Shown: positions 5,706 to 53,383 of the stretch, one piece after another
Layout: each line of letters begins with the position of its first letter
How positions within the stretch are numbered: the stretch's first letter is position 1
Source: Panorpa germanica
Lineage: Eukaryota > Arthropoda > Insecta > Mecoptera > Panorpidae
Length of the DNA stretch: 64,000 nucleotides
NCBI GenBank assembly: GCA_963678705.1
Contig: OY783223.1
Coordinates: 7,658,721 to 7,722,720, forward strand
Direction: 5' to 3'
Program-made: the position numbers and the translations under genes
The notes under the pieces: generated by a model
Told to the model about the DNA's origin: nothing
The model's input: only the letters and a program-made list of their open reading frames with translations
Databases searched by the model: none

Positions 5706-7197
5706 TGCAAAAACATATCTAAAATTCTAATTTTAAATAGCTATACCTCTTAAGAATTATTAACAATTTGAATAGTTGAGGTCCTAATATTCGAGTTTAT
5801 AAACTAATTAAGAGGCAATTATAATAAATGCAATCACTTTCAGAGTGCATGTGCACCCACTAAACCATAATACAGGTGAAAGCTTTGCACTAATTTATAA
5901 ACCTAAGTTTAATAGATTTGAATAATTATAATTATAATAAATATATATTTTCTTTTATGCAAATACGTAAATAAAATTATTATTCGTTTATAACTTAAAA
6001 ACATGCAAAAATAATGAAAAGTTATAATTAATATTTAATATACAATTAAGCAAACATTTATTTTAATTTCGTATCGTTTATCGTTAATTTCTGTAATGTA
6101 AGAACTTAAAGAAATGTATATGTAACTGTCAAATAAACTAAGTAAGAATAATGGGCTAATTTTCAGAGTTTTGTTAATATAAAATCACTGTATATATTAT
6201 AAGATATAATTCAGAAAAGATAATATATTTCAGATATATAATGTCAAAACATATCGTCATTATTACTCATGACGATCTTTAAATAAAGCGACTGGATTAG
6301 ATATTACGTAATGTACGCAATAGATTTCGATACAAATTAAAAGAAAACTTAAATTCAATTTAAAACAACACATAAAACATTAAAAATATAACTTTTTCTA
6401 CGAGTTTTATTCTCTACTGATGAATCATAATAGCAATAAGAATAATTCCTTGTGTTTGTAGCATTTTCCATGTAAGATAAGTAAGAGAAGCAGTTAATTG
6501 CAATTAATTATAAAGTTTAATTGTTTTACAGAATACCTTGTATATGTAATAAAAATATAAATAAAGGAACATTCTTTACAGGAGTAAAGATAATTAGTAT
6601 CTTAAAAGATGTGTGCCGGAGATTAGTGCATATGATTTTAATTTGACAGTTTTAATACTTAATTAGGGTTATAAATATTACATGTGACAGTAATATGCAC
6701 TGATTCTAATTGAAAATTAGCATTAGAAGATCTATTTTAATTAAAATGTATGCATATACAGAATTAATAAGTAATATTTATATAAAAATAATGTATACAA
6801 CAACATTTTGACATATATATAACGAAACATAAGAGTTTATTTATATTAATTTCGGAAATTAATGACATGTAAATGTTTGGAAATGGTGTTCAGTTAACTT
6901 AATTATTGTATTAATAACTTTAATAATTACTTACGATTTGTAGAAAAACAGGAAAAATTATTAAATAATTCTTGACACAACACATTTCTTGAAAACATTC
7001 ATCACGGCCATTGCCACTAACTAGTTACAAATTCTAACACAGTAACGCTAGTAGTCAAAATATTTGTAAATAACTTCATGTTATTTTCTGTGACACTCCT
7101 GTCACTGTCAAATCAAGACAATAAGTTAGATTGTAGATAACCTGTAATTAATATAATAAAGTAAATTAAAATATATATTTGAATTATCTAATTAAAA

Positions 7198-8790
7198 ATG
7201 ATTTTAAATTTAAATGTCGGTGTTTTGGGTCATGTTGATTCAGGGAAAACTTCATTAACGAAAGTTTTAAGTCAAGAAGCTAGTACTGCAGCTTTTGATA
7301 AAAATCCTCAATCAAAAGAACGAGGTATTACTTTAGATTTGGGATTTAGTGCTTTAACAGTAGACCTTCCCGAACAATTAAAAGATAAAACAGACTGTAC
7401 GAAACTACAATATACGTTAGTGGATTGCCCCGGGCATGCCAGTTTAATTAAAACTATAATTGGTGGTGCTCAAATTATTGATTTTATGTTGCTTGTTATT
7501 GATGTGACTAAAGGTATGCAAACACAAACTGCTGAATGTTTAATCATAGGAGAAATAACCTGTAAGAAAATGATAGTTGTTTTAAATAAGATTGATATGT
7601 TAGACAGTAGTAAACAATCGGCGATGATTGAAAAAATAACGAAAAAAATCAATATAACTTTAGCAAACACTTTATTCAAAAACTCACCTATAGTCAGTGT
7701 TTCTGCTTTATCCTGTGAAAAGTCTACAGGTATTGATATTTTATTATCAACTATGAATGATTTTGCATTCATTCCAGTCAGAAATAGTGCTCTGCCATTT
7801 TTGTTTGCTGTTGATCATTGTTTCGGTATAAAAGGCCAAGGTACAGTAGTTACTGGGACTGTTTTACAAGGATCTGTTGGAGTGAATGATTCTGTTGAAA
7901 TTCCATCATTAAAAATAACAAAGAAGATTAAAGCAATGCAGATGTTTAAGAAGCCGATATCGACAGCAACGCAAGGTGATAGATTAGGAATATGTGTCAC
8001 ACAGTTTGATCCAAAGTTATTGGAAAGGGGAATTGTTTGTTCTCCAGGATATGTACCATTCATTAACGCCGCTGTTATCGACGTGCACAGGGTCAAATAT
8101 TTTAGAGGAAAAGTTCTGTCCAAAGCAAAATATCACATAACAATGGGACATGAAACAGTTATGGCCACACTGACGTTCTTTGGAGTTAAAGATAATAAAA
8201 ATTTAGAATTTAACTTTGATAATGATTATTTATACCAAAAAGAATTATACGAAACAAATTCCAGTGATGAAGGATTACTAGATTATCCAGATAAACAATT
8301 TGCTCTTTTAGAGTTTGAACGTCCGGTTCTAGCTGCTCCACATTGTTTAGTTATTGGCTCGAAATTAGATGTAAATATTCACTCAAATACTTGTCGACTA
8401 GCTTTTTACGGTACATTACAGACCACCATAGAACAAAAGAACTACCAAGTGAACGGCACCCCGTTGCTAAAAGTTTACAAAAACAAAACTAAGACTGGAT
8501 TTATAGACCGTCTTGTCAACGATAACGAAATTATAGCCAAGAATCTCTTTAAAAAAGAAAGCAATCTACAAATATTTATAGGACTTTCTGTGTTCCTATC
8601 CACTGGTGAAAAAGGTCGAATCGAAAGTGGTTTTGGTCAAAGTGGAAAAGCTCGAATATATTTTTCCGGAGGCCTAAAAACAAGTACCCTTGAATCTTTT
8701 GTTAATAAAACGAGAAATAGTGAAAAGATTGAAGTTAATTTACAATTTAAAAGGTATATATATGATGTAAACAAAAAAATAATTCAATAA
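7198..8790 (+). CDS. eEFSec: Selenocysteine-specific elongation factor eEFSec
   Basis: This GTPase delivers selenocysteyl-tRNA to the ribosome at recoded UGA codons, working with the SECIS-binding protein SBP2. The 530-residue frame is uninterrupted. It has all GTPase motifs: G1 GHVDSGKT (11-18), G2 RGIT (42-45), G3 DCPGH (76-80) and G4 NKID (130-133), followed by EF-Tu-like barrel domains and a conserved C-terminal domain IV around the GEKGRIESGFGQSGK segment. Length is a little under that of vertebrate eEFSec. ATG 7198 is the natural start, because motif G1 begins only ten residues later. There is no intron, and an AATAAA lies about 90 bp after the stop. Nearest neighbour is syntaxin 6 on the opposite strand, tail to tail. 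Many insects have lost selenoproteins, so an intact factor is informative. Family assignment is secure; current use in Sec incorporation is inference. Confidence 0.95.
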   Translation: MILNLNVGVLGHVDSGKTSLTKVLSQEASTAAFDKNPQSKERGITLDLGFSALTVDLPEQLKDKTDCTKLQYTLVDCPGHASLIKTIIGGAQIIDFMLLVIDVTKGMQTQTAECLIIGEITCKKMIVVLNKIDMLDSSKQSAMIEKITKKINITLANTLFKNSPIVSVSALSCEKSTGIDILLSTMNDFAFIPVRNSALPFLFAVDHCFGIKGQGTVVTGTVLQGSVGVNDSVEIPSLKITKKIKAMQMFKKPISTATQGDRLGICVTQFDPKLLERGIVCSPGYVPFINAAVIDVHRVKYFRGKVLSKAKYHITMGHETVMATLTFFGVKDNKNLEFNFDNDYLYQKELYETNSSDEGLLDYPDKQFALLEFERPVLAAPHCLVIGSKLDVNIHSNTCRLAFYGTLQTTIEQKNYQVNGTPLLKVYKNKTKTGFIDRLVNDNEIIAKNLFKKESNLQIFIGLSVFLSTGEKGRIESGFGQSGKARIYFSGGLKTSTLESFVNKTRNSEKIEVNLQFKRYIYDVNKKIIQ

Positions 8791-37171: not shown

Positions 37172-40100
37172 TCACCCTATTCGGAAGATCATGGCGCAGT
37201 CGACTCCAGTAGCTTCCGCACGTTCCGTCAGTCGATCCTCCGGGTCCACGTTCATCGTGGGGGGCCCATCGTGCTCGTCATCATTTTCATCGTTCTGATA
37301 TTCTAATTCATCTTGGTCCCCCGCTGTGTATCGCGTGAAGTTTCTAGCGGTGGTGGCGCTACTAGCACGGGCCAACGCACGGGGCGCCATCGAACCACGA
37401 CGTAGGGATAACATCGCCGACAAACACCGACCCGTGGGGTTACCGGGTGGTAGGATCGCATCGTCGATGTCTTGGAAGGAAACTGGAAGAAAACAAATTG
37501 TTTCTGGTTACTTTTTACCAAAATTTAATTACTTAAAATTTGAATTTCATTTTTTCCCGCCTTACGCTATGACGCCATGTTTGATACGTCACGTGTTTAA
37601 AAAGTTGGGCTAGATCAGTTACGTCGTTTAATATAAATTTGCTTTGTAAAAATGTTGAAAGTTTTGTTAAAAAATAATCTTAATAGACACGCATATTTAA
37701 AATCGGTTAAAAGCTTAAAACTATAGCAATAAATATTTTCTTGTCTACGAAAACTGGAAAGTCATTTAACGACTGATGGAAATGAGTTTTTCGTTAAAGC
37801 AGGTCGTAGGTTTTAGTTCCAATCACGCATTAGCAGTATATATTAATTATGTTTTGTCGATATTTTTTATATAATGCTTGTGTCATATTTTCTATGTTGA
37901 ATATTAAAATGATTAATTAACTATGGAACGACTAGGACAACGCGCAGGGTCAGGGTGCAACGAGCTCACAGAGAAAGACTTCCACCACCGTTTATCGTTT
38001 TGAACATTGGAAAATGGCCATGGAGCAGTGTAGGGGATGTAAACATCGTGACGATATTTTTTCTACGTGACGATGTTTTTTCAACGTGACGATGTTTTTT
38101 CAACGTGACGATGTTTTTTCAACGTGACGATGTTTTTTTTAACGTGACGATGTTTTTTCAACGTGACGATGTTTTTTTCAACGTGACGATGTTTTTTCAA
38201 CGTGACGATGTTTTTTCAACGTGACGATGTTTTTTCAACGTGACGATGTTTTTTCAACGTGACGATGTTTTTTTAACGTGACGATGTTTTTTCAACGTGA
38301 CGATGTTTTTCAAAAAAAACATATTATGTAACAACAGTATCAGTACACAAGTTTGACTTGGTGTACTGTCGTATCGGTACGTGGTGTGTATGTATTATGA
38401 CACAACACATGCAAAGAACACAGGAGTCTGCTTGCTATGAAAGTTTTAGCCGATTTACTCCAGAATTCGCCGTCACGAACTATCATAAGTCGAGCCGATA
38501 TTTCACAAAGTTTCTCATGACGTACCTCGGCTAACGTAAAATAAATTGCTTCACTCATTTGTTAATCTATATTCTACAAGATAAGTAACACGATTTTATG
38601 AAAAGATTTTGATAAGAAATATAATGATTGCGAAACGCGAAATTCTAAGAAGCCTATTGTTTAATTCTTTAAGGAAAGAAAACAATTTATATCTTAAATT
38701 GACAATAGGTCTTATCAATTACGTACCTTTCGCGCGGTTGTAAGGTTACTAGGTTTTTCTAAATTCTCGAATGTGTATAATTTTATTTGATTGAACGATT
38801 TTTTGTATATAACATCTTCTGTAATACAAGTTTCTAAGCAAATGAAAATTGACGTAAAAACCTTTGAGTCATCGGGAGTTCGCGGTTGAAACTTGCATGC
38901 ATACCAATTCATAAGACAAGTTAACCATTTCATCCATTAAATAGAAAACTTTTAAACGTAAAACTCATTTAAAAGTTTACGTAGTTTTTAAGTTGCAATT
39001 AAAAACAGTTCCCACTTCAATACTCAGATATTCATGTACGTTCATTCATTCGCCCGCTTGGCTAAGACAATGTTGAAGTTAGGTACTAATTAGCACTTTA
39101 ATTGAAGCTGAAGTAACGAACGAATATTTCGCGGGCATTTCATAGTTATTTTGTTATGTAATCAGGAAGGGTTGGAGCTAGGAAGTTGGTGGATAGGGGA
39201 GTGGGGTATATGCGAGTAGAACACGCAAATATTGTGTATTAAGTTTATTCTTATTATGATAAATATTTAACAAAAGTTTACATAAGTTTGCGAAAGTACA
39301 AGAACTTTATAATTATTGTAAGAAGAAGATTTTTAACACCTTTTAATTTCTATTTTATGTGTAGTTGTTATAATTACTTGTGTTTTTAGTGGATTGAATG
39401 ATTTCCAAAATTCACGTCCCAGTAAACATTTTGGAGTAAATTCTACTTAATTTCTATTACATATCATGAGTTTTTTGTCTGGAACGGAATAAATATTTAA
39501 ATGAAGAAATAAATAGATGTAATCTTTAGTACGGATCGTGATTTTTTTAATGAATATTATTCATCTTCAACAATACTCGTTATATTAGTTTTTTACATTG
39601 TTTTGGTGATTCAAAAATCCACGATCGGCAGGTCTGCGTTAGGTTTAAAACCTCTGTCTTACCATCGCTAGATTCTATCTTCGTTTATATACATTCTATT
39701 CGGGGATTGAGGGAGATAGCGTCTGTCTATTACCATTAAAGAAATATTTGTTGAAAAAGGATAGCATATACTTTAAGCATACTGTACTGAACAAAATACT
39801 ATACAAGTATAACGGTGAAAAATATATTTTACTTGTCTAACCGCATCTCGTTTCTCTCTCACTTTGGAATAAATGAGATGAAAGTGAACTTAAAAAAAAT
39901 ATATCCATGTGGGAAAGAAACAGAAATACTTAATGAATGATGTTGGAAAAAGAAAGAATATTATTATGAAAAAATTCTAACAACTAACACAAAATCTGTG
40001 ACAGGTAGAGAACTTGTAAAGCGTTAGAATAGAATTGTACGAGTGACTCGAACTTCACCAAATAGGGCACTTCACCAAATTGTTTACTGGGGTATTAGAA

Positions 40101-42127
40101 CTAGACCGTTAAAAATCCTTTTAAATTATACAGTATATGTTCATATACTGTAATCAGTTTAAGAGATATGGGCAATATTGTTTCTTTTTTGAATAATTAC
40201 TAATTTTTAGTGCAGTGCTCTACTTTATAGCGATGCTGCTCAATATCTGTGGGATATACATACAAATGACGTATACAAAAATTGTAGGAAATTTAGTCCT
40301 CTCTGAGATTGATAATAACTATTTTTATCATAGGACCCACTACTAAGGAGATATTACCTTATTCTTTAAGGGGTTATATACAGTTATCAATCCCAAAAAA
40401 AGCGACTTTTCAAATAAATTTCCTGAGAAGACTAATAATTGTATTAATGTAAAAATTTGTACACATGTTATGGTAACTTTTAACTGTATTTAAATATTTT
40501 TATATTTGCAAAAATATTAACTTGGTGATCTCCAGGAGCTCCTCTCAAAAAAGGCATCTTGTGGTGACCCCTATATCTCTGGATTAAATTATTTAAAATG
40601 AAAAAACTAAACGGATTTCGTTAAAGTAATGTATAATCTAGAAATTAATCGAAGGATTAGGAAAAATAATGTTTTTTGACAAAATGGCGGCTTCTCAAAA
40701 AAGAAACATCGATTTTTGACCAAATTTTTGGCCTTAAATTGTTTATAAAAAAAAAACTAATTATCAGTGAGATAAAACCATCGATTAAATTCTAAAAAAT
40801 ATACTTAAGAAGTTTGTGTTAAAATTTGAGACTGATTGGTTCAGCCGTTTCCGAGTTTTTTTGGAAACACCATTTTGAGAGTACAATATTTTTTCAACTT
40901 ACATACTTGAAATTTTCTGTGTGTTTACTTAAATATATGTACATTACGAAGGACACGTTATAGGGCAAAAATATCCTTACCTGATTTGCCGCTTTTCCTC
41001 AAACTTGCCAATCGTTTCTGCGCCTGCGCATACGGAAGTGGATTTGGGGTATTTCTAATAGCAATAGACTTAGCGTTATTTATGATCATCTGTTGTTTAG
41101 TTTTCTTATCATCACTTTCCGAATCGCTAGCTGTTGGACTGATCAGAGAAACCATTGTCACAACTTCAGCACCAGCCACAGATCTAGACCTCGCCAATCC
41201 TTTCCTTCCTCTGGACTTACTATCAGGACTCATCTTATTCTCATCCTCACTGGATTCACCACCATCTTTATCCTTGTTAAATCGTCTTCTGGTTTTAAGT
41301 TTCCTTTTATTCTGTGACATTTTACTTTCTTCTTCTTTCGGGGCTGGTGAAGGCATAGGATTAGAAAGCGCTCTTTGAAGCGGTGGTCGTGGTTTGTCCA
41401 CTGTCGCGTTAAACGCACTTTGACGGGACTGATTCTGGAAGCTGCTTCTCCTCATCGCAGCTGTCATTGGTGTAATTGTCACGTTGTTAACACCCGCGGA
41501 ATCAGGAACCGCATCCTGAGATACTTCCGCGACGTTTTCCTTCTGCTCCACGTTAAAATGAAAAGCCTTCATCGGTTTTGGGGCGGTACTTGGTCTAGCT
41601 TTCCCAGATGGTGGTATCATCTTCGTCTTCGTCTTCGTAGGGGTAACAGATGCGGAGATAACGCTATCCGCCGTTTCAGGAGCATCCATTTGATCTACAT
41701 CACTCATAACATCTTGAATTTGAGTATTTGGCGCTAGAAATATATCTAAATTTTGTTTTCCCTTCTCTCTTTCCCTCCACGCTTTCCTAAGCCTCTCTGC
41801 TAGTTCCTGCCGGGTATACAGGATGTCTTTGTCAGTCAGTAACATCCTCGATTGACGATGTTGCTCACATTTCTTCGCCACAACTTCCACGTGATCTGCA
41901 GAGTTTTGTTTCTTCTCTATCCAAGCAGCTCTAACTCGGGGTCCTGATGATATATTTGGTTTGGTTTTGTTTTTTGGTGGTAATGATATTTTCAAGCCGC
42001 TCTCGCTTGCTATCATAGGGGTAATTTGTTCTTCAGATAGTTGCTTCCTGAGTGGAGCACGTTTTGGAGGTTGCTGCTGCAGCGATTGCTGCCGGACTAT
42101 GCCGGACCTTGGACGAGCACTTGTCAT
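37172..42127 (-). CDS. Unrecognised basic Ser/Pro-rich protein, two-exon model
   Basis: I do not recognise this protein. Exon 1 (42127-40981) encodes about 382 residues from MTSARPRSGIVRQQ. It is basic, rich in Ser, Pro and Gln, with a charged helical stretch (TRQELAERLRKAWRERE, about 105-125) and nuclear-signal-like runs (KRKLKTRRRFNK). It ends at the donor TCAG|GTAAGG. Exon 2 (37482-37172) has the acceptor TTTTCTTCCAG and exactly the complementary phase, joining as ...KSGKSVSFQDIDD. It ends in a stop directly at GGGTGA, total 485 residues. GTGAGA at that point is also a good donor, so further exons are possible. Exon 2 is markedly more GC-rich than its surroundings. The 3.5-kb intron holds a minisatellite and two repeats. 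A cytoskeletal or nuclear role would fit the composition but is only a guess. Exon 1 is confident; the linkage is tentative. Confidence 0.6.
38045..38315. repeat. 19-bp minisatellite, 14 units
   Basis: Fourteen tandem units of CGTGACGATGTTTTTTCAA differ mainly in T-run length and an occasional C-to-T change. The first unit is the most diverged. Each unit carries ACGTG (bHLH-PAS/HIF core) overlapping TGACG (CREB/ATF half-site). It lies in the intron of the 37-42 kb gene model. Confidence 0.95.
39418..40091 (+). mobile_element. CCCAGTAAACA-ended element, copy 1
   Basis: The left end, CCCAGTAAACATTTTGG, pairs with the right end, CCAAATTGTTTACTGGG, as terminal inverted repeats. The body is about 95% identical by eye to 45828-46637, apart from a ~170 bp segment missing here. 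No transposase frame and no obvious target duplication were found. CCC-starting ends recall piggyBac-type elements, but no TTAA flank is present. Confidence 0.8.
40374..40948 (-). repeat. Dispersed repeat, copy B (inverted mate of 3115-3757)
   Basis: Reverse complement of the 3.1-3.8 kb repeat. Landmarks such as 'ggttatatacagt', 'ggagctcctct' and 'gttcagccgtttcc' are shared. It ends about 33 bp before the exon-1 donor of the 37-42 kb gene. Confidence 0.75.
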
Positions 42128-42292
42128 TTTACTATTTTTATTTCACTGAGGGAATACATTGTTCTATTATCTTTTCAATAGACATGTTTCTTTATTGTTT
42201 ATTACTACATCAACACAAAAATAATCAAATTATAAATTTATTTATTAATTATCCTCATATATGAATAAGCAGAGGCGCACCAGGCTTCTGAC

Positions 42293-42819: not shown

Positions 42820-44720
42820 TAAGTAAACCATAAGTTTACGTTTTGGGTTTAGCGGGTATTTGATTTAAAATCTTAATCCATAAAAAAACTAACTTAGAAA
42901 TTATTAAACAGAAATATATATCACAATAAATTAATAATATTTACAAATATAAAAACCGCATTAAACCATAAGATTTTCTATCCAACTGTATATTTACATA
43001 TAATATTAAATTTATTTAATGTACACATATGTAACTTTTTTGTTTTATTTACTTTTGTGTTTTTTATATGTATTTACTATTTACGTGCGAAGGGCTAAGA
43101 CACAGCGCTCCCTAAAACCTGGAGCTGCCCTAAACCAACCCCCTGAGAGGTCGAGTTCGTACTGATCACAGAGATATTGAATGAACACAACCAGCAACGT
43201 GGTTTTCAGTGTTAGAGCTCATTTATTATTGATCAAAAACTATCCTTGTTTTAAAACAAATCAAAACCCTACGTTAAGGTACATAGTAGTATTGAGGACT
43301 GGCGGATACCAACCCTAAAGCACAACGGATATAACTGCATCAAAACTTTCAAGAAAATTTCATTTACTTTGAAGTGAGTTTTTGAGAAAAGATTCAAATA
43401 TTTACTTATTTATATAAATAAATAAATTAATATGAATATTTAATATAATTAATACATATTATTATTATAGACAAATTGTTTAAAATAAATATGTAAAAAC
43501 CGTTGTCAAAAATAACGCAGAAGCTATTGCAGGTGCAGGAACAAGAACGTTTGGGTCATTTCATAAACAACAGGCACAAGTTCCCGGCGAGCAAAACTGC
43601 TTGTAAAAATGTAATATTATAGTATGGACACATTCACATTCTAATAGAGAGTGGGGGGTTTCGAGAGAGTATGTGACAAGACGTGACAAGGTGGGGGAGG
43701 GGGGGGGCACAATCAAAAGATTCGTGACATTACTAATAATCTATAATTCACCTTCCAAAAAAAAACAAGACCAAAAAATAAATAAGACTGAATTTGTTTT
43801 TTTCTTTTCAAATGTGTGACAAGCAGAGAAGGCGAAATTGCTAACAGGGTGGTTAAAGTCTTGTTACAAGTAATCCCTACTACCATTATTCGCAGACAAT
43901 AAAACAAACTATGGGGGCTTCGTAAGTTTGAGGAGCCTACAGATGTGTTAATTTATCTCTGGCTGATAGCTTTGCTTCCCATCGTCTTAGATCGTAATGA
44001 AGTCTTTGTCTTGACCCACTTCAAGCCGATTTAACCACTTTTCCGTAAACAAATTAAACTATTTTAATTTCATTGAGAAGAAATTATAAAAATAATGAGG
44101 AGAGGTAAAGAAGTATTACTTCTAACTCGCCTACTGTGTAAACGTATTCTGTTGACATATGAAATTAATTATGAAATATTTGTGAACCACAGAGCCCCTA
44201 TAAATGGGCGATTCTTAGTTTTAGAACGCCATACGTTGTCTTTAAATATAATATGACATAGATACATTTGTAAACTAGGTTTAGCTATAAAACCACTTAA
44301 ACAAAGGATAAAAAAAAGTTTTCGTTATTGAATTTTTCAATAAAATTGCCTGTGAACATCATATAAAAATGTTATATTGGAAATAGCAGACAAAACATGT
44401 TGGCATGGTTACCGAGGGCTAAAGAAGGCCAGAGCCGTATTGGGACGGGGTAGATTTAATGTATTTCTAATAGTAGTGGTATTATAGTCCTAGCAAATAT
44501 CTAGTTTTAGTCTTTAACTGAGTTATAAAATAGTCGGCCATATTTATGACGTAACATGTCTGTACTATTGAAATAATATACTATCTCTTTTACGCACTGT
44601 TGTTGTATAAAAGAGATAGCAATTTAACGATCATGACGTCACATGTCTTGGAATATTCTACAACGTTGAATCCCTTTAATAATTAAAAAGAGAAAATGAC
44701 TTTTTTAATTGTTAATATCT

Positions 44721-45061
44721 AAAAACCCTGTTACGGCAGACGTAATATTGGAATTTGATTGTTCCTTGAAATAGTTGTAAATAATATTTGATATTTTGAT
44801 ATATAAATACATATAGCAGAGATTTATGAGCTGTAAGGTTGGTAACCTTACACAAGGATTGTGATGTCACATGCACTTGGAATGTGTACAACGTTGAATC
44901 CCTTTAATAATTAAAGAGACAAAGTGATTTTTTTAATTGTTAATATCTCTTAACATATAAGGAGTTATTAACAAATAATTGAACATTTGAGATTCTAGTA
45001 ACCCACTTTATCAATATATAGCACAGTTTTATAGAAATTAAGACATAGGACACAAGCCCAT
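44721..45061 (-). mobile_element. ~600 bp TIR element family, copy 6 (truncated, composite)
   Basis: Reverse-orientation partial copy with the intact end GGACACAAGCCCAT at 45061. It is preceded at 44518-44720 by a diverged piece of the long variant that repeats the segment 'caacgttgaatccctttaat'. This indicates nesting or unequal exchange between two copies. Confidence 0.75.
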
Positions 45062-45395
45062 TCTGCCGAAAATATTGCTTCAATATTTCCAATTAACAAT
45101 AAAATAGAAGATTACTACATCATTAAAAATGGCCGCTGATAATTAATATGTTATATTTAGCAGAGATAAACTATTAATTTATATTAATCAGGTTTATTAT
45201 TTAATTAAAATGTACACATGAGCTATGGAGTCACAGAGTATAGAATTACATAGTAGGACGGTATTACAGAGTATAGTATTAACTACAGTATTACCGTGTG
45301 TAGAAAGAAAGATACAATAGTGTCAATACCGAGAGGGCGCTAAATTTAAATCCAACATAATATAAATTTATTTTTGACTTTACAGATAGTCGACA

Positions 45396-48300
45396 ATGAT
45401 GGACGAACGCAAATATAAACCAATGTCCCATACTTTGGACTACATTAACGCCAATTTCATTTCTATTAAAAAAGAAGATAGAACAAGATACAGCGAAATA
45501 TTAATTGATGTATTAAATCAATTCAAAAATAAGATGATGAAAGTGAATACGCTTTACAACGCCCTCAACGATGGAGACATAATATACGCGGGCAGTACGT
45601 ATGACAACATAAAAGTTGGCAAGCCTAATGAGTTCGACCTGAATGTACCTTTGAAACTACCTATTAACTACAAAACGGAATTAATGGTAAGTTTTAATTT
45701 CGCATGTGTTGTGTCACAATACATACATACTGGTAAACACAACATTGAGAATCATTTAGCAGCTTTTCGCATTAAGACAGTTTCAGTATGCAACCACTTT
45801 TTATAATTTTTGTTTGTAGGCTAAGAACCCAGTAAGCATATCATGAATTTTTTGTCTGGAACGTGTTCGTTTTCTATTCAGTCGTTCATAGAAAGGCCCT
45901 TTTTATGACCTACAGAGATCGCAACGACGGTTCACTGCTGAATTAAAAGCGGAGTCGGTTTATGATTTATGACCGGAGTTATAAACTTAAAACTAGCAGG
46001 GGTATAAAACTTAATTGAATTCTACATTTTAGAGTCTGCAAAATATAAATATTTAAATGAAGAAATAAATAGATGTAATCTTTAGTATGGATCGTGATTT
46101 TTTTAATGAATATTATTCATCTTCAACAATACTCGTTATATTAGTTTTTTACATTGTTTTGGTGATTCAAAAATCCACGATCGGTAGGTCTGCGTTAGGT
46201 TTAAAACCTCTGTCTTACCATCGCTAGGTATTATCTTCGTTTATATACATTCTATTCGGGGATTGAGGGAGATAGCGTCTGTCTATTACCATTAAAGAAA
46301 TATTTGTTGAAAAAGGATAGCATATACTTTAAGCATACTGTACTGAACAAAATAGTATACAAGTGTAACGGTGAAAAATATATTTTACTTGTCTAACCGC
46401 ATCTCGTTTCTCTTTCACTTTGGAATAAATGAGATGAAAGTGAACTTAAAAAAAATATATCCATGTGGGAAAGAAACAGAAATACTTAATGAATGATGTT
46501 GGAAAAGGAAAGATTATTATTATGAAAAACTAACACAAAATCTGTGACAGGTAGAGAACTTGTAAAGCGTTAGAATAGAATTGTACGAGTGACTCGAACT
46601 TCACCAAATAGGACACTTCACCAAATTGTTTACTGGGAATAATGTTTACTATAAATCGCGAAGTTTCTGAATTTTGACCGTTTAGAACCCGAGATAATTA
46701 ATAACCAAAGAAAACATCCTGTTCGCCCAACTGTTTAATATTATACAGAAAAAAATCTCTGGAAAGAATTTTGAAAAAAAAATAGGAGCAAAAAAATGTT
46801 TTTTAAACAAATAGCACTTCTTCGTTTCGTATTCGAGGTATAATAATTTAAAATATAATTTTTTTAATTGCAAGACGTTCTTTTCATGATCAATAGTGAT
46901 CCGGCAACGCTGCACGCAACATTATCTCGAATAGTGCAGAATTCCAAGAACAGAATTCCTAATACATTTTTAACAATGCAACCATCGAAATATTTGATAC
47001 TATATCTGACAATAGTAAATATTCTGACAATACGCTAGAACTACCTTAAGTGATTTAGAGCCATTTCTTATGTTTCTAATGTTTTTTTTATTCTACAGAT
47101 TGAAAATGTAAACAAGGAACCTGGGTTCACTAAGGTAGTCTTCACCTCAGAAGGATGGGAACGTCTACAAAAGCACAATAATTGGACAATATATAGGTAA
47201 TCAAAACCTTACACATAAAAGTTTCTAGAGAATTTTACTAACACCAACATTTTTTAGGTTATTATTTATGTCAAAACACTTATTTAAATCGATTTTTTAG
47301 TAAAATGCTAGGCTGGGTCAACGAAGAACGCCAGCTCCTGCAGGATAAATTCCTGCAGTGGATGCAAGGAGTGGTTATCTCTACGATTGAGGAAATTAAA
47401 AAGGAGTCGAAAAACCCCATACCTGTCATTGTTACAAAAACAAATAAATCGATTGAGGTATGTATTCTTCGATTGAAAGAGTTTTGTATAAAAAGCTAAT
47501 GACAGTCAGATCTTGGGTTCAACTAAATAAATAAACTATACATGCATAACAAAATCATGATTAAAACTTACCACGATCAAGTGAAGATTATTAATTTGAA
47601 CATCTTCAATGATTTTGACAAATAACCTAACTCATACACTAAACCACCGGATTTAAAATGCACACATCTATATTTATTTGCACAGATAATTGTCTAACCA
47701 ATAACACATTTATTTATATTTTAATAACTTAACTTTTACTCATTTATTAACATATTCTAAATAATTTTAACCATCCTAAATGTTATTTCAACTTAATTTA
47801 ATAATTTACTTGACACTTTTAAAATTTAAAGACGTGCTAAAAGATGACAGATTCAATAACAAAATGTTTACTTTCATGCTCCATCTCATGGGCAATAGTT
47901 TAAGTTGCATGGTTTGAATATTTAATAGCATCATTGAGATTAATTATATTTCTTTGGTTCTAGATAACGTCTACTACATCAGGACCAGCGCTTACACTTC
48001 ATCTTAAATACCAAGACATTCTTATAGACGTGGATTTAGTCCCTGTGATCAGATTTAATAATTCACCAGAAGAGAACCATTGGCCTAAGTCGCCTGTTAA
48101 GCCTCTACCATCCAAGTGTATTAAGGTATTGCAAACAATTCAATAATTTCGTTTTGTTAACGCACTATTCATTGTTAAAATAACTCTATTATTATTTTCA
48201 GAGAACATTTGTTGCGGTTCCAAAACCGAAGCGAAATAGCAACGGCGGAGCCATAATTCCAAAGAACCCATCCTGGAGATTGTCTTTCCATGAACAAGAG

Positions 48301-49596
48301 TATGATCTTCTTGCTGGAACCGGAGAATTAAAGAACTGTCTTCGCCAAATAAAAGTATGATCCAAGGATATTGTAGAAATAAATTAGTATTTACTTATTC
48401 GTTCGTTATTCATTTTTTAGAAACTGCGTGATAACAATCCACATTTAAAATGTGTGGCAAGCTACTGGATCAAAACGTTGTTCATTTGGGAAAATGAAAA
48501 TCCGGGAAATGCAGAGCTCTGGAGGAAACCTAAAGGAGTGATTTTTATGCATGTAAGAAATTAAATGAACTGTTATATAACTTGGAAATATTGAAGATAA
48601 CTTCTGCGTTTGTTTCAGATGCTCAATAAATTTCTGGAATATATTAAAGTTGGTAAAATTCCATTTTATTGGGACCCCAACCACAATCTATTGAGCCCAA
48701 TTAATAAGAATAAGTTGAATGGAATTCGTGAAGTACTGCAGGGCATAATTACCAAAATTGATAAGAATGTGGAAGGGAACCCGGCATACATTGCCGAAAT
48801 ATTGCGTAAGTTGTTACTTCAAAGGGCTTTTGTCCTCATTTTTTAGTGGTCGATTTTTCAATTGTTGATTGAAATTGATGTTAATAAATGTGTATTGGCG
48901 TGTCTATTTTATTAAATGTCTAAATGTTGACGGAGATATAGCAATTAAAAGTTTGAATTGTAGTTTTAGCGCTAGAGATGGTCGGCCATATTTGTATGAC
49001 GTGAAATGCATTTTAACGTCAGTTATTTGTTGAGTAGGTCAGTGCTGTGGTAATGTTTTGTAGCTGTTGGTAGTCAAATAATCCAGTCAAGTCAAAGAAT
49101 AATAAGTTTTTATTTTATTGAACCCTGTTACGGCAGACATAATATTGGAATTTGATTGTTCCTTGAAATAGCTGTAAATAATATTTGATATTTTGATATA
49201 TAAATACATATAGCAGAGATTTTTGAGCTGTAAGGTATAAGGAATGTGTTCAACGTTGAATCCTTTAATAATTAAAGAGACAAAATGACTTTTTGAATTG
49301 TTAGCACACAAGCCCATTAACAAAGCCACATTAAACTATATAAACATGACATTTTGTGTTTTATGATTCTATTAATTAGAAACAAGATTAAAAGGTTCAT
49401 TTGTGTTATTATTTCAGTGAATGCCGAGGAACTGGCACGCTTCAAGGAAGGATATGTTCCTGTAGCATCTTCCAGCGGTTCTGTCAATGGCAATCTTGCA
49501 GGTAGGCTGGGCTCTTTGCAAATACCAAATAGCAAACCACCACAAGTCGTGGTTAAAGAATCACAAGAAAATGAATCAAGATGCACTGTGCAATAA
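45396..49596 (+). CDS. cGAS-like receptor (cGLR, Mab-21 nucleotidyltransferase), short isoform
   Basis: cGLRs sense cytosolic nucleic acid and make cyclic dinucleotides that activate STING. Eight coding exons: 45396-45686, 47099-47196, 47301-47457, 47964-48125, 48202-48354, 48421-48552, 48619-48805 and 49418-49596. All introns are GT-AG and in frame, giving 452 residues. The active site is complete: Gly66-Ser67 in YAGSTYDNIKV, Glu79 and Asp81 in NEFDLNV, and Asp206 in LIDVDLVPV. The C-terminal helical lobe includes NPSWRLSF and CVASYWIKTLFIWE. I see no His-Cys-Cys zinc thumb, as in insect cGLRs. The first ATG of MMDERK is used; an acceptor just upstream suggests a non-coding first exon. Introns 1 and 7 carry mobile elements. 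A competing donor inside the last exon leads to the long isoform. The subtype, ligand and product cannot be told from sequence. Confidence 0.9.
45828..46637 (+). mobile_element. CCCAGTAAACA-ended element, copy 2 (cGLR intron 1)
   Basis: Begins CCCAGTAAGCATATC and ends TTGTTTACTGGG. It matches 39418-40091 closely, with a ~170 bp segment after the left end that the other copy lacks. Entirely within cGLR intron 1. Confidence 0.8.
48823..49317 (-). mobile_element. ~600 bp TIR element family, copy 7 (cGLR intron 7)
   Basis: Reverse-orientation copy bounded by GGGCTTTTGTCCTC and ACACAAGCCCAT, with a ~130 bp internal deletion relative to full copies. It begins only about 18 bp after the exon-7 donor and makes up 495 of 612 bp of the intron. 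Confidence 0.85.
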
Positions 49597-50117
49597 TTCA
49601 TAAAGTTATTTTATGTGGGGATTTTATTTTAATGTTTGCTTATTTTTTGTTTGAACTTTTATATATATATTTTATATTTGTAATAAATATAATCGATTTT
49701 ACACAAATAATATTAATTATTGTACAAGGAAGGCTATCGTATGTGTAATGTCCTAAATTTTCTATTGATGAATTGTCATGTGCTTTTATAGTATTGTAGA
49801 AAAAATTATATTGAGTTTTATCAAGGTTTTAATGTATGTATAACGGATTTTACTGGACTAAAAATAAGGAAATAATGATAACTTCTACAATTAATTAAAT
49901 CTTAATCTAACACAATTTTAACTTCAGAGTTGTATTATATAATAGTAATCTAAAAGAATGTATTGTAGGATTTGTTACTTGAAAAAATATCACTTTTCTA
50001 TCATATATTTTGATATTACTATTAACTAACTTAAGTGGGCCCTCGTACAGTATTAAACTTAAAGTTAACAAGGCTATTTTATTTAATTCATCATTGTATT
50101 AGTGTATTCTTTATTAA

Positions 50118-50330
50118 GGACCGTTTTTTTAATTATTGATTTAAATAAAGGGTAATATGTGTATATTGACGTTCTTATTTTTTAAATAACCAAGTCTTAA
50201 CTGACTTATAGCTATGTCAAATTTGAATTACAGTTTTACAGCATGTTTTATTCTGCATATGACATCACAGAAGCAATAAGTAATCGAGATTATGTTTCCT
50301 TTTCACAGCCATCGCTAAAATTAAAGAATA
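50118..50330 (-). repeat. Old fragment of the ~600 bp TIR element family
   Basis: Diverged but collinear with one end of the family. It reads 'gaccgttttttt...attattgatttaaa', 'gtgtatattgacg', then 'atagctatgtcaaatttgaattacagtttta', then a trace of 'gacatcaca'. It lies between the two alternative last exons of the cGLR. Such decayed copies show the family has been active over a long time. Confidence 0.55.
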
Positions 50331-50653
50331 TAATAAAAAATGATGGTAATTATGTATATGGTTTTAAACATGGATAAAGATTGATTTTTTTAATTTAGAA
50401 AGTATGGAGTATACATATATATAAAACTAAAATAGCAATTAGTGGCTGCAAATGATACTTTAGAAGAAAGATTCTTTTGAATCTGTTACACATCAACTGC
50501 CTAAATAATTTACTATGTGTTAAAATGACCCCATTTAGCGCGTTTTGTCGTCTAAACACATCGTAAATAAAGTACTGTGCGTATAAAAATTATTAACACT
50601 GTTTTCTAGCTAGTTTGTTCGCAAAAAATAATGAAATACTGTTTTCATTTTAG

Positions 50654-51051
50654 GAAATGCAAGTACTGATAAAGACAAAAACCTACAACGTAACGGCAGC
50701 GGAAGTGGAAACACATGTGATAGTTCTGTAACGGGTAATACTTCCCGTTCCTTAACTACTTCATCAGGTGTAAGCACTAATAATTCAAATGACAACGAGA
50801 AAATTTTAGCTATGTTAAAAACAATTCAAGGGCTTTTATCGAAAAATGATTCTGCTATGGAAAGTATGAAGACAGAAATACAAAATTTAAATGCTAATTT
50901 GATCGATTTGAAATATGAATTAAGTGAAGTTAAAGATGAACTGAAAATTTGGAAGAAGAGCACAAAAATTGATAAAAGTTTTAATGTTCCACGTCAGTTA
51001 GATTTATTGCAGCCTGAGATATTGAATTCTAAGTTATTGGATTTGGAATAA
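50654..51051 (+). CDS. Alternative last exon of the cGLR: coiled-coil C-terminus
   Basis: A 398-nt open block has a clean acceptor (GTTTTCATTTTAG) and ends in TAA. Splicing from a donor inside the preceding exon (CTTGCAG|GTAGGC, exon end 49501) joins in frame as ...GNLAGNASTDKDKN. This replaces the last 32 residues of the short form and gives 553 residues. The new tail has a Ser/Thr/Asn-rich linker, then about 55 residues of heptad-like sequence (ILAMLKTIQGLL ... LKYELSEVKDELKIW). That should form a coiled coil for oligomerisation or partner binding. An AATAAA-rich 3' region follows. It could instead be an exon of a separate transcript. Confidence 0.6.
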
Positions 51052-53383
51052 TTGCTGAATATATATATATCTATGATATAATGCAATCATATGAACGACA
51101 GCATTTAAACAATATTGACATATATGTACTAAATATATTTACAAAATATAAAATGAATAAAGCAAATAAATCTTAAATATTAGAAGTATATTTTACCCAT
51201 ACTTATTGTATCTAGTCTTTTCTAAGTGTAACTGGCATACGTTAATTTTTGTCGATTTGTCAAAAGCATATATTTTCTAAATTAGGCTATTTATGCTCAC
51301 TGCAAGATATGCAATTTATTTTGTCCTTTTTTTAAAGTTAGCTGATAGTTTTGGATAAACTTACATAAAGCCTAATTTAAAAGATATATGCATTTATAAA
51401 AATCGCTCTTTAGACAAAGATTTCACTTTAATTTAATAATTCATTTATTCAATTTTATCAATTCATTTTAATAATTAATTTTAATGCGGTAAACTGTCGA
51501 AAAAGCTGGTTTATAATTTTTTCTGACTTATTTGTAAGTTCTGTATCGAAATATTACATTTACCAGTTTCAATTTTGATGGATTATACCTCCATCTTGAA
51601 AAAATGGCGGCTAAAGACGATTCCTTTTTGCAATATCTTTTTGCCTGTGCGTTTTAAGAAAGAAATAGTTGAATAGAATATGAAATTGTAGGAAATTGAG
51701 TCGTTTTTTGTATATCAACAACGACATTTAACATCAAGTGCATGCACTTACAATTTTAGTCATATTTCTTAAACCCATTATAGTATATAAACATATTATA
51801 TATCATTTTAAAGGGTTTTTTAACATTCTACAACTTTTATTTAAACATTTTTTAAATAAAGTAAATAGTTACTGCCAATTTTCCACATTCAGGTTTTTTA
51901 GGCAAGTGATTTTTAAATTAAAAGAAAATAAAAAATATAACCGAAATAAAGCTATGTTAAATATGGTATAGAATTTTTACGTAAATATCATAATTATTGT
52001 TCCCTTCAAGAGCTCTTATCTCGTTATATGATATTGCTATTAATAAAGAAGTAATTAATTATTCATGTAAACGCTTTATTGATGTATTGCTATATTATTT
52101 AAGTCTATATTAAGAAAGTAAACTACATATATTTACAGTTACTTTAATAGTTAAGCATTACTATTACTTACAAATTTTTGTAAAATTAAATATTGGAAAT
52201 ATATAAATACTACTGAGCAACCCGTTTCTATTTCCATGTCCCTACATACCCCTAATAAAAAAGATTTATTACTCTTCTGTTACTGATAACAAATGAAGCA
52301 GAAGGATACCAAAACGTTGACTTTTATTTCTTTAAAAAATTAATAAAAATTTCTAAAAAAAAATAAATTCAATTCAAAATTTTATAGTTTATTTTTAAAA
52401 AAGTTATGCTTCTTTTATCTCCCACTGCAGCGCCACTGGGTCCTATTATCTCTGTTATGAAATTGCCATATGTGTAAAACTTTTTTAAAAAGAGCTGCAG
52501 GAATGATCACTGGAAAGAACTAAATGTTACAGAGTTTCTCTAGTCCTAAAAAATACACTCGCCCTGTAATAAATAGTAATTTAAATCTTCTGGAGGCTGA
52601 TTTAAAAAGTTCTACAAATTCTTTTAAGGGTTTATTTAATCTTAAATAACAAATTATAAGTTAGCATTATTGAATTTATGTATATTATTTAAAATAAATA
52701 GAAAACTAATTCATTTACATATGATATATATGGCAACCTAAATAGCTTTTCTAATATTTTACAAAAGGAAATCGTCGAGGTCATATTTAAAGCCTTCATG
52801 ATTATAAAAACAATAGCAGTGTTGCAAGAGTTTTTCTATGTGTGTTTCACATTTTATATAATACAGAAAAAATACGGCAAAAGATAAAAATATAATTCTA
52901 TATTATTGCTCATTTAGTTCTGCGTTCTTTTTAAGTTATTAGAAAATAATTACAGCTTTTATTTGTATTGAAAAGAAATATTATTTTAAGCATTTGACAA
53001 GTTGATCAAAATATTAACTCTGGTAATAAGTGAGTTCAAGGCACTGAACTCCGTTGTTCGGCATGCTCGGAAAACTACGCATGGCGATCGCCCGGCTCCG
53101 AGCTGTGTTCTATTGTGGAATGTCAGCGTACCCCCAAAAAACAACTGCACAGCGAACAAGGAGTGTGGTAGAACAGGCGAGGCCCCAATATCAAAATGGC
53201 CGACTAATCAGAGACTCCGCAGCAGTATACTTTTTATTCAGTATCACCTCTGATACCGTTCGTGTTCATTAAAAAAAAGTGTAAATATTGTTTAATAATT
53301 TTGTGTTCATTATTGTTGTACAAATATTTTGTATAATTTGTAAAAAAGTATCAGCATTGTGAAATATTTTTATTTTCTAAATA
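51052..53383. other. Intergenic region between cGLR and ZAD zinc-finger gene
   Basis: AT-rich with no supportable gene. The last ~350 bp (about 53030-53250) are much richer in G+C and include CAAAATGGCCGAC, which resembles a YY1/Pho-type core. This is a plausible promoter and 5' UTR for the zinc-finger gene. Short frames there overlap in two phases and look non-coding. Confidence 0.45.

Follow-up and report, generated by a model that had tools for sequence, protein, structure and literature searches.

A cGAS-like receptor gene of Panorpa germanica with a probable in-phase terminal exon encoding a predicted coiled coil

Switchable C-termini are described for the human enzymes OAS1 (p42/p46) and OAS2 (p69/p71; PMC13372824; PMC6950736). 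They are antiviral nucleotidyltransferases related to the cGAS-like receptors (cGLRs). One core is combined with alternative C-terminal tails by splicing, and these tails are reported to set localisation or virus specificity, the latter in the case of OAS2 (PMC13372824). In a similar manner human ZAP-S/ZAP-L is an antiviral nucleic-acid sensor in which the extra C-terminal part of the long form is reported to change the working location (PMC10747524); yet it is a different protein, and what its long form gains is a PARP-like domain that carries a CaaX box. The insect cGLRs studied are presented mainly through their catalytic core and ligand groove (PMC8410604). Here we describe a cGLR gene at positions 45396-51051 (+) of a 64,000-nucleotide stretch of the Panorpa germanica genome (contig OY783223.1, positions 7,658,721 to 7,722,720; the whole stretch is referred to as the window). 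It very probably has an additional terminal exon which encodes a flexible linker and a predicted coiled coil. This differs from the OAS tails, which consist of a prenylation motif in OAS1 p46 and of short peptides, predicted to be disordered, in OAS2. In our preferred reading, to which we assign a rough probability of 0.55, the main transcript is spliced from 49501 to 50654, the coiled-coil form is the main product and a short form is minor or conditional.

The gene was rebuilt base by base, with exon edges set by the GT-AG rule and the reading frame. Exons and frames are thus read directly from the DNA; every intron is GT-AG and both frames are intact. When exon 8 is read through to 49596 the product has 452 amino acids (short form). 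When 49501 is spliced to 50654 the frame ends at 51051 and the product has 553 amino acids (long form), with a last intron of 1152 nt and a last exon of 398 nt. Phase 1 applies to the donor CAG|GTAGGC at 49502 as well as to the acceptor preceding 50654; apart from this donor, which follows exon 8a, only the one after exon 7 has phase 1 in this gene. A preliminary description of this DNA had proposed a donor, GCAG|GTAGGC, in exact phase with an open 398-nt exon 1.15 kb downstream, and precisely this was found. The features are as follows.

45396..45686, + strand: coding exon 1; begins ATG ATG and holds G66-S67, E79 and D81; Pfam Mab-21
47099..47196, + strand: coding exon 2 of the rebuilt gene model
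47301..47457, + strand: coding exon 3 of the rebuilt gene model
47964..48125, + strand: coding exon 4, with the third catalytic acid D206 in DVDLV
48202..48354, + strand: coding exon 5 of the rebuilt gene model
48421..48552, + strand: coding exon 6, Mab-21_C
48619..48805, + strand: coding exon 7, Mab-21_C, phase-1 donor
48850..49303, unstranded: intron 7 copy of a dispersed repeat, outside the proposed mechanism
49418..49501, + strand: exon 8a, common to the short and long forms; end of the conserved core and Ser/Gly linker
49502..49507, + strand: donor GTAGGC within exon 8, the sole strong GT among the nine of this exon
49502..49596, + strand: tail of the short form only, 31 codons including the straddling one, then TAA
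49682..49687, + strand: candidate poly(A) signal AATAAA of the short form, weak
50654..51051, + strand: tail exon with linker, 49-residue heptad repeat, C-terminal LLDLE and TAA
51156..51170, + strand: AATAAA pair (51156, 51165) of the long form, 3' of the tail exon stop

An acceptor-like stretch of good quality, TTTTTGACTTTACAG, is located at 45370-45395 directly 5' of the start codon. It suggests that a further 5' untranslated exon may exist upstream of 45396.

The identity of the core was examined with profile and structure searches. Pfam identified Mab-21 (8.6e-36, 124.3 bits) and Mab-21_C (2.2e-19, 69.9 bits; cut-offs 24.1). The best solved relative was the cGLR from Tribolium castaneum (XP_969398.1, PDB 7LT2), to which residues 10-409 were aligned with an E value of 1.5e-42, and with which the core and the GS and EFD...DVD residues are shared. 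All catalytic positions are present, as the preliminary description had stated: G66-S67 in the G[S/G] loop, E79-F80-D81 as the [E/D]h[E/D] pair, and D206, which aligns to D193 of 7lt2. D206 is located 124 residues past D81, compared to 120 in the active Tribolium enzyme by the same count; the third acid of cGLRs is described as residing 50-90 residues after the acidic pair (PMC8410604). A Zn-ribbon as in cGAS was not detected, i.e. the 452-residue form has four scattered Cys residues and no CC pair. Likewise, other insect cGLRs lack the Zn-ribbon, and it is reported to be absent from Tribolium cGLR, an enzyme activated by dsRNA which produces 2'3'-cGAMP (PMC8410604). These data support the assignment of the gene as a cGLR with a probably intact active site. 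In contrast to the gene described here, the solved Tribolium chain has 399 residues and the alignment stops at its residue 381, so a 140-residue tail could not be accommodated in that chain.

Is the tail exon a genuine one? Splice matrices were trained on the gene's own seven introns, a small training set from which the candidate sites were left out. The donor at 49502 scored 7.25 bits; the next best of the nine GTs within 49418-49596 reached 0.5, and the seven known donors of the gene scored 2.4-6.9 bits in leave-one-out tests. Counting the candidate itself, 101 of the 6572 GTs on the two strands of the window scored at least as high. By eye CAG|GTAGGC matches seven of the nine positions of the donor consensus. 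The acceptor before 50654 is average for this gene (6.1 bits), and 189 of 5971 AGs are as high. Among equally high acceptor-phase combinations only 5 of 579 are followed by at least 131 open codons: three in a zinc-finger open reading frame (ORF), one in the ORF of the selenocysteine elongation factor eEFSec, and the tail exon. Of 2000 simulated non-coding stretches of 3.8 kb, 2 contained an acceptor that fits the phase and is followed by 131 or more open codons.

Codon usage pointed in the same direction. The tail exon scored 0.167 per codon, against -0.185 ± 0.065 in simulated sequences, none of which (0/2000) reached it; 4 of 5000 composition shuffles matched it. The composition control is weak on short pieces: the certain exon 6 was matched by 1317 of 5000 shuffles and exon 4 by 2 of 5000. 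Open frames of 25 codons or more were also scanned for coding-like runs; the scan was given no exon edges, and its model had been trained on the eight exons but not on the tail. It found the tail and all of the eight exons except exon 6. The best run in the tail frame begins at 50653, one base off the predicted edge. The scan detected no other + strand run with a score of at least 9 within 49597-50652; between 43.0 and 53.4 kb it reported additional + strand runs at 43085-43150, 43649-43792 and 53077-53187. The - strand contributed three runs, of which two face exon 8. Finally, the tail exon has no in-frame ATG upstream of its helix and therefore needs an upstream exon. From these features we conclude that the tail exon is very probably real. 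Two other origins of the tail were considered and rejected. A stand-alone microprotein gene was ruled out because the first in-frame ATG comes only after the open, coding-like linker. The ORF of a transposon was ruled out as well, since a search of the animal's own genome (E up to 10, five candidates scored) matched only the exon itself.

The composition of the tail agrees with the Ser/Thr/Asn-rich linker and heptad-like helix of the preliminary description. Ser, Thr, Asn and Gly constitute 32 of the first 46 residues. The unbroken heptad stretch comprises 49 residues (about 55 had been proposed) with LILNMMILLLLVLW at positions a and d; 13 of the 14 a/d positions are hydrophobic, the exception being one Asn. 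This pattern was equalled by none of 2000 shuffles of the helical half. The tail ends in a hydrophobic-acidic piece with the C-terminal LLDLE, which resembles a clathrin-box motif and serves as a lead only. The clathrin-box pattern arises somewhere in 13% of the shuffles when the whole tail is permuted and in 26% when its second half is; exactly at the end it occurs in 0.11% of shuffles, a test picked after the motif had been seen.

Relatives of the tail were searched for in several collections. With Pfam no family passed the cut-off for the tail; its seven matches were weak, led by WDCP with an E value of 0.0032. Five matches of the tail to solved structures (E up to 1) were weak as well, the best at 0.021, and the short C-terminus had none there with E up to 10. 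Neither the short form and the tail in IMG/VR nor the long form among the GTDB species genomes retrieved relatives with single-protein queries, which detect close relatives only. Elsewhere in the Panorpa genome the profile searches located Mab-21 and Mab-21_C together only at two genes on C21, which we regard as the actual mab-21 genes; such searches may overlook a cGLR that is split or divergent. Mab-21_C alone was matched on C9, C4 and, below the cut-off, C7. Tail-bearing paralogues were not seen: tblastn with the long form (E up to 10), which covered stretches of C4 (9.9 kb), C9 (9 kb), C21 (7 kb) and C18 (9 kb, STING), matched only the two C21 genes, and these in the core. The gene fragment on C4 (L024 3815-4348) has a Mab-21_C match with no Mab-21 match listed, and the long-form tblastn was negative in that stretch. 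STING_LBD gave four matches on C18 of the same genome, two of which were over the cut-off alone or with their neighbours.

Which of the two forms is the default? The layout, a donor inside a possible last exon and a second, in-phase last exon downstream, is that of an IgM-type composite terminal exon. Poly(A) sites in human composite terminal exons are reported to be accompanied by weak donors and large introns, and in a CstF-77 reporter a stronger donor nearly abolished the use of an intronic poly(A) site (PMC3708835). Here, unlike the usual case, the donor has 7.25 bits and the intron 1152 nt. Because the donor is strong and the intron short, the tailed form is likelier the default than an optional extra, and we are rather confident that a form with the tail is made. 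For a regulated switch, in which intronic polyadenylation and splicing would yield the short and long forms in comparable amounts, donor strength and intron length are thus opposite to expectation. On its side are the properties of the short-only stretch. It is GC-rich up to its stop (0.40) and GC content drops to 0.154 directly thereafter (Fisher p 1.1e-4). Its 31 codons score 0.337 like the exons (0/2000 simulated), a single coding-like run covers 49417-49593, and an AATAAA follows 85 nt past the stop. Yet in the composition control 317 of 5000 shuffles did as well as the short tail, and the antisense of exon 8 is coding-like too (49428-49562, score 14.4), so part of the short-tail signal is composition. 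Further, a 31-codon read-through is unremarkable, considering that intron 1 is open for 39 codons. An AATAAA is as close at 26% of the local non-coding points; for the AATAAA pair of the long form, two are as close at 9% of the non-coding points. Taken together, the evidence for the short tail is modest, and a regulated switch with comparable forms is possible but doubtful.

That only the 452-residue form is made, the exon at 50.65 kb being a relic or part of another transcript, is improbable. Such a protein would be a complete cGLR with a candidate poly(A) signal of its own, and the tail has no detectable relatives. However, open frame, codon usage and heptads of the tail are intact, its phase is matched, it has no start of its own, and the kilobase upstream of it contains no other + strand coding-like run with a score of at least 9. 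Skipping of exon 8 as a whole, with exons 8 and 9 as alternative last exons, would keep the frame intact, as exon 7 joined directly to 50654 stays open and gives 525 amino acids. This is very improbable indeed, because residues 395-409 of exon 8a align to Tribolium cGLR and the core would be cut; moreover, the donor at 49502 would be left without a role. Several points weigh against our preferred reading, i.e. a tailed and oligomerising main product. Exon 8a and the short tail form a coherent terminal exon as well. The linker half of the tail, taken alone, is matched by 184 of 5000 composition shuffles, a weak signal. Tribolium cGLR is active though its solved chain cannot accommodate such a tail, and oligomerisation through the coiled coil is predicted from the heptad pattern only. 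The lack of tail relatives in IMG/VR and GTDB belongs here, too; these collections hold viruses and prokaryotes, so that the lack says little. In the end, the preliminary description of a plain sensor with an alternative tail stands in so far as the in-phase tail exon is very probably real; the order appears to be reversed, as strong donor and short intron make the tailed form the likelier default.

How might the tailed protein operate? The long form would consist of a cyclic-dinucleotide synthase core, a flexible linker of about 50 residues, a coiled coil of about 50 residues and a short acidic-hydrophobic end, 553 residues in total. As the tail begins in a Ser/Gly stretch just past the conserved core, catalysis should not depend on it. 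Human cGAS is known to oligomerise on DNA. For a fly cGLR1, condensates with dsRNA have been reported (PMC8410604). The coiled coil may join two or more cores, which would provide higher avidity for long double-stranded nucleic acid and ease assembly of the active enzyme. Alternatively, the tail may dock the enzyme on a partner, putatively on a partner coiled coil or, via LLDLE, on clathrin. If splicing bypasses the donor at 49502 and the transcript terminates within the intron, the untethered 452-residue form would be generated as from a composite terminal exon. Use of the tail, the dominant form, oligomerisation and the ligand are what we infer from these features. A more far-reaching version is speculative and in our opinion unlikely: the coiled coil would pre-assemble the sensor or LLDLE would tie it to vesicles, and the choice of the 3' end in exon 8 would tune a clustered low-threshold versus a free high-threshold form.

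The surroundings of the gene are rich in repeats. The copy at 48850-49303, which fills most of intron 7, belongs to a dispersed repeat of about 460 bp with at least 39 other places at 89-97% identity (40 of 3799 candidates scored). More copies in the window are located at about 44724-44942 and near 0.95-1.43, 23.2-23.7, 26.8-27.2, 29.0-29.5, 30.0-30.6, 56.0-56.6, 60.7-61.2 and 61.9-62.4 kb. A 603-bp direct repeat, 96.5% identical, occupies 46045-46637 in intron 1 and 39489-40091 upstream of the gene. On the opposite strand an open frame of 394 codons (40958-42142, -) has no Pfam match over the cut-off. The window also carries an intact single-exon ORF for eEFSec at 7192-8790 (+). Elsewhere in the genome a search for tRNA-Sec gave 16 matches, and one of them, at G000:C7:14980317-14980402, exceeded the gathering score with 77.8 bits. 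The species thus seems to keep a selenocysteine machinery, which has disappeared from several insect orders. Up to 2017 selenoproteins were not known from any lepidopteran (PMC5330540). The genome has a size of 464 Mb. The mitochondrial contig, of which 10,000 bases were read, has its tRNAs in the order Ile-Gln-Met and a Leu(UAA) tRNA directly 3' of COX1. The order Met-Ile-Gln is that of ditrysian Lepidoptera, and some early-branching moths retain Ile-Gln-Met. Taken with tRNA-Sec and eEFSec, the tRNA order speaks for an insect order other than Lepidoptera, whereas the preliminary description had pointed to lepidopteran cGLRs for comparison. COX1 matches were mostly (19 of 20) outside C249, the mitochondrial contig, namely on C1, C3, C5, C16, C21 and others, and contained TGA or other internal stops; these fragments probably are nuclear copies.

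The preliminary description knew of no report of a switchable coiled coil on an insect cGLR. In the titles and abstract openings of open-licence papers on cGLRs neither a coiled-coil tail nor splice isoforms of an insect cGLR were mentioned, but switchable C-termini as such are known from the related OAS1 and OAS2. Thus, one nucleotidyltransferase core with alternative spliced tails is established by OAS, and the coiled-coil tail on a cGLR would be the novel element. If this is correct, a tail chosen by splicing on an insect cGLR would parallel the vertebrate OAS enzymes, and a built-in tail for oligomerisation or docking would constitute a second way of setting the activation threshold of the sensor.

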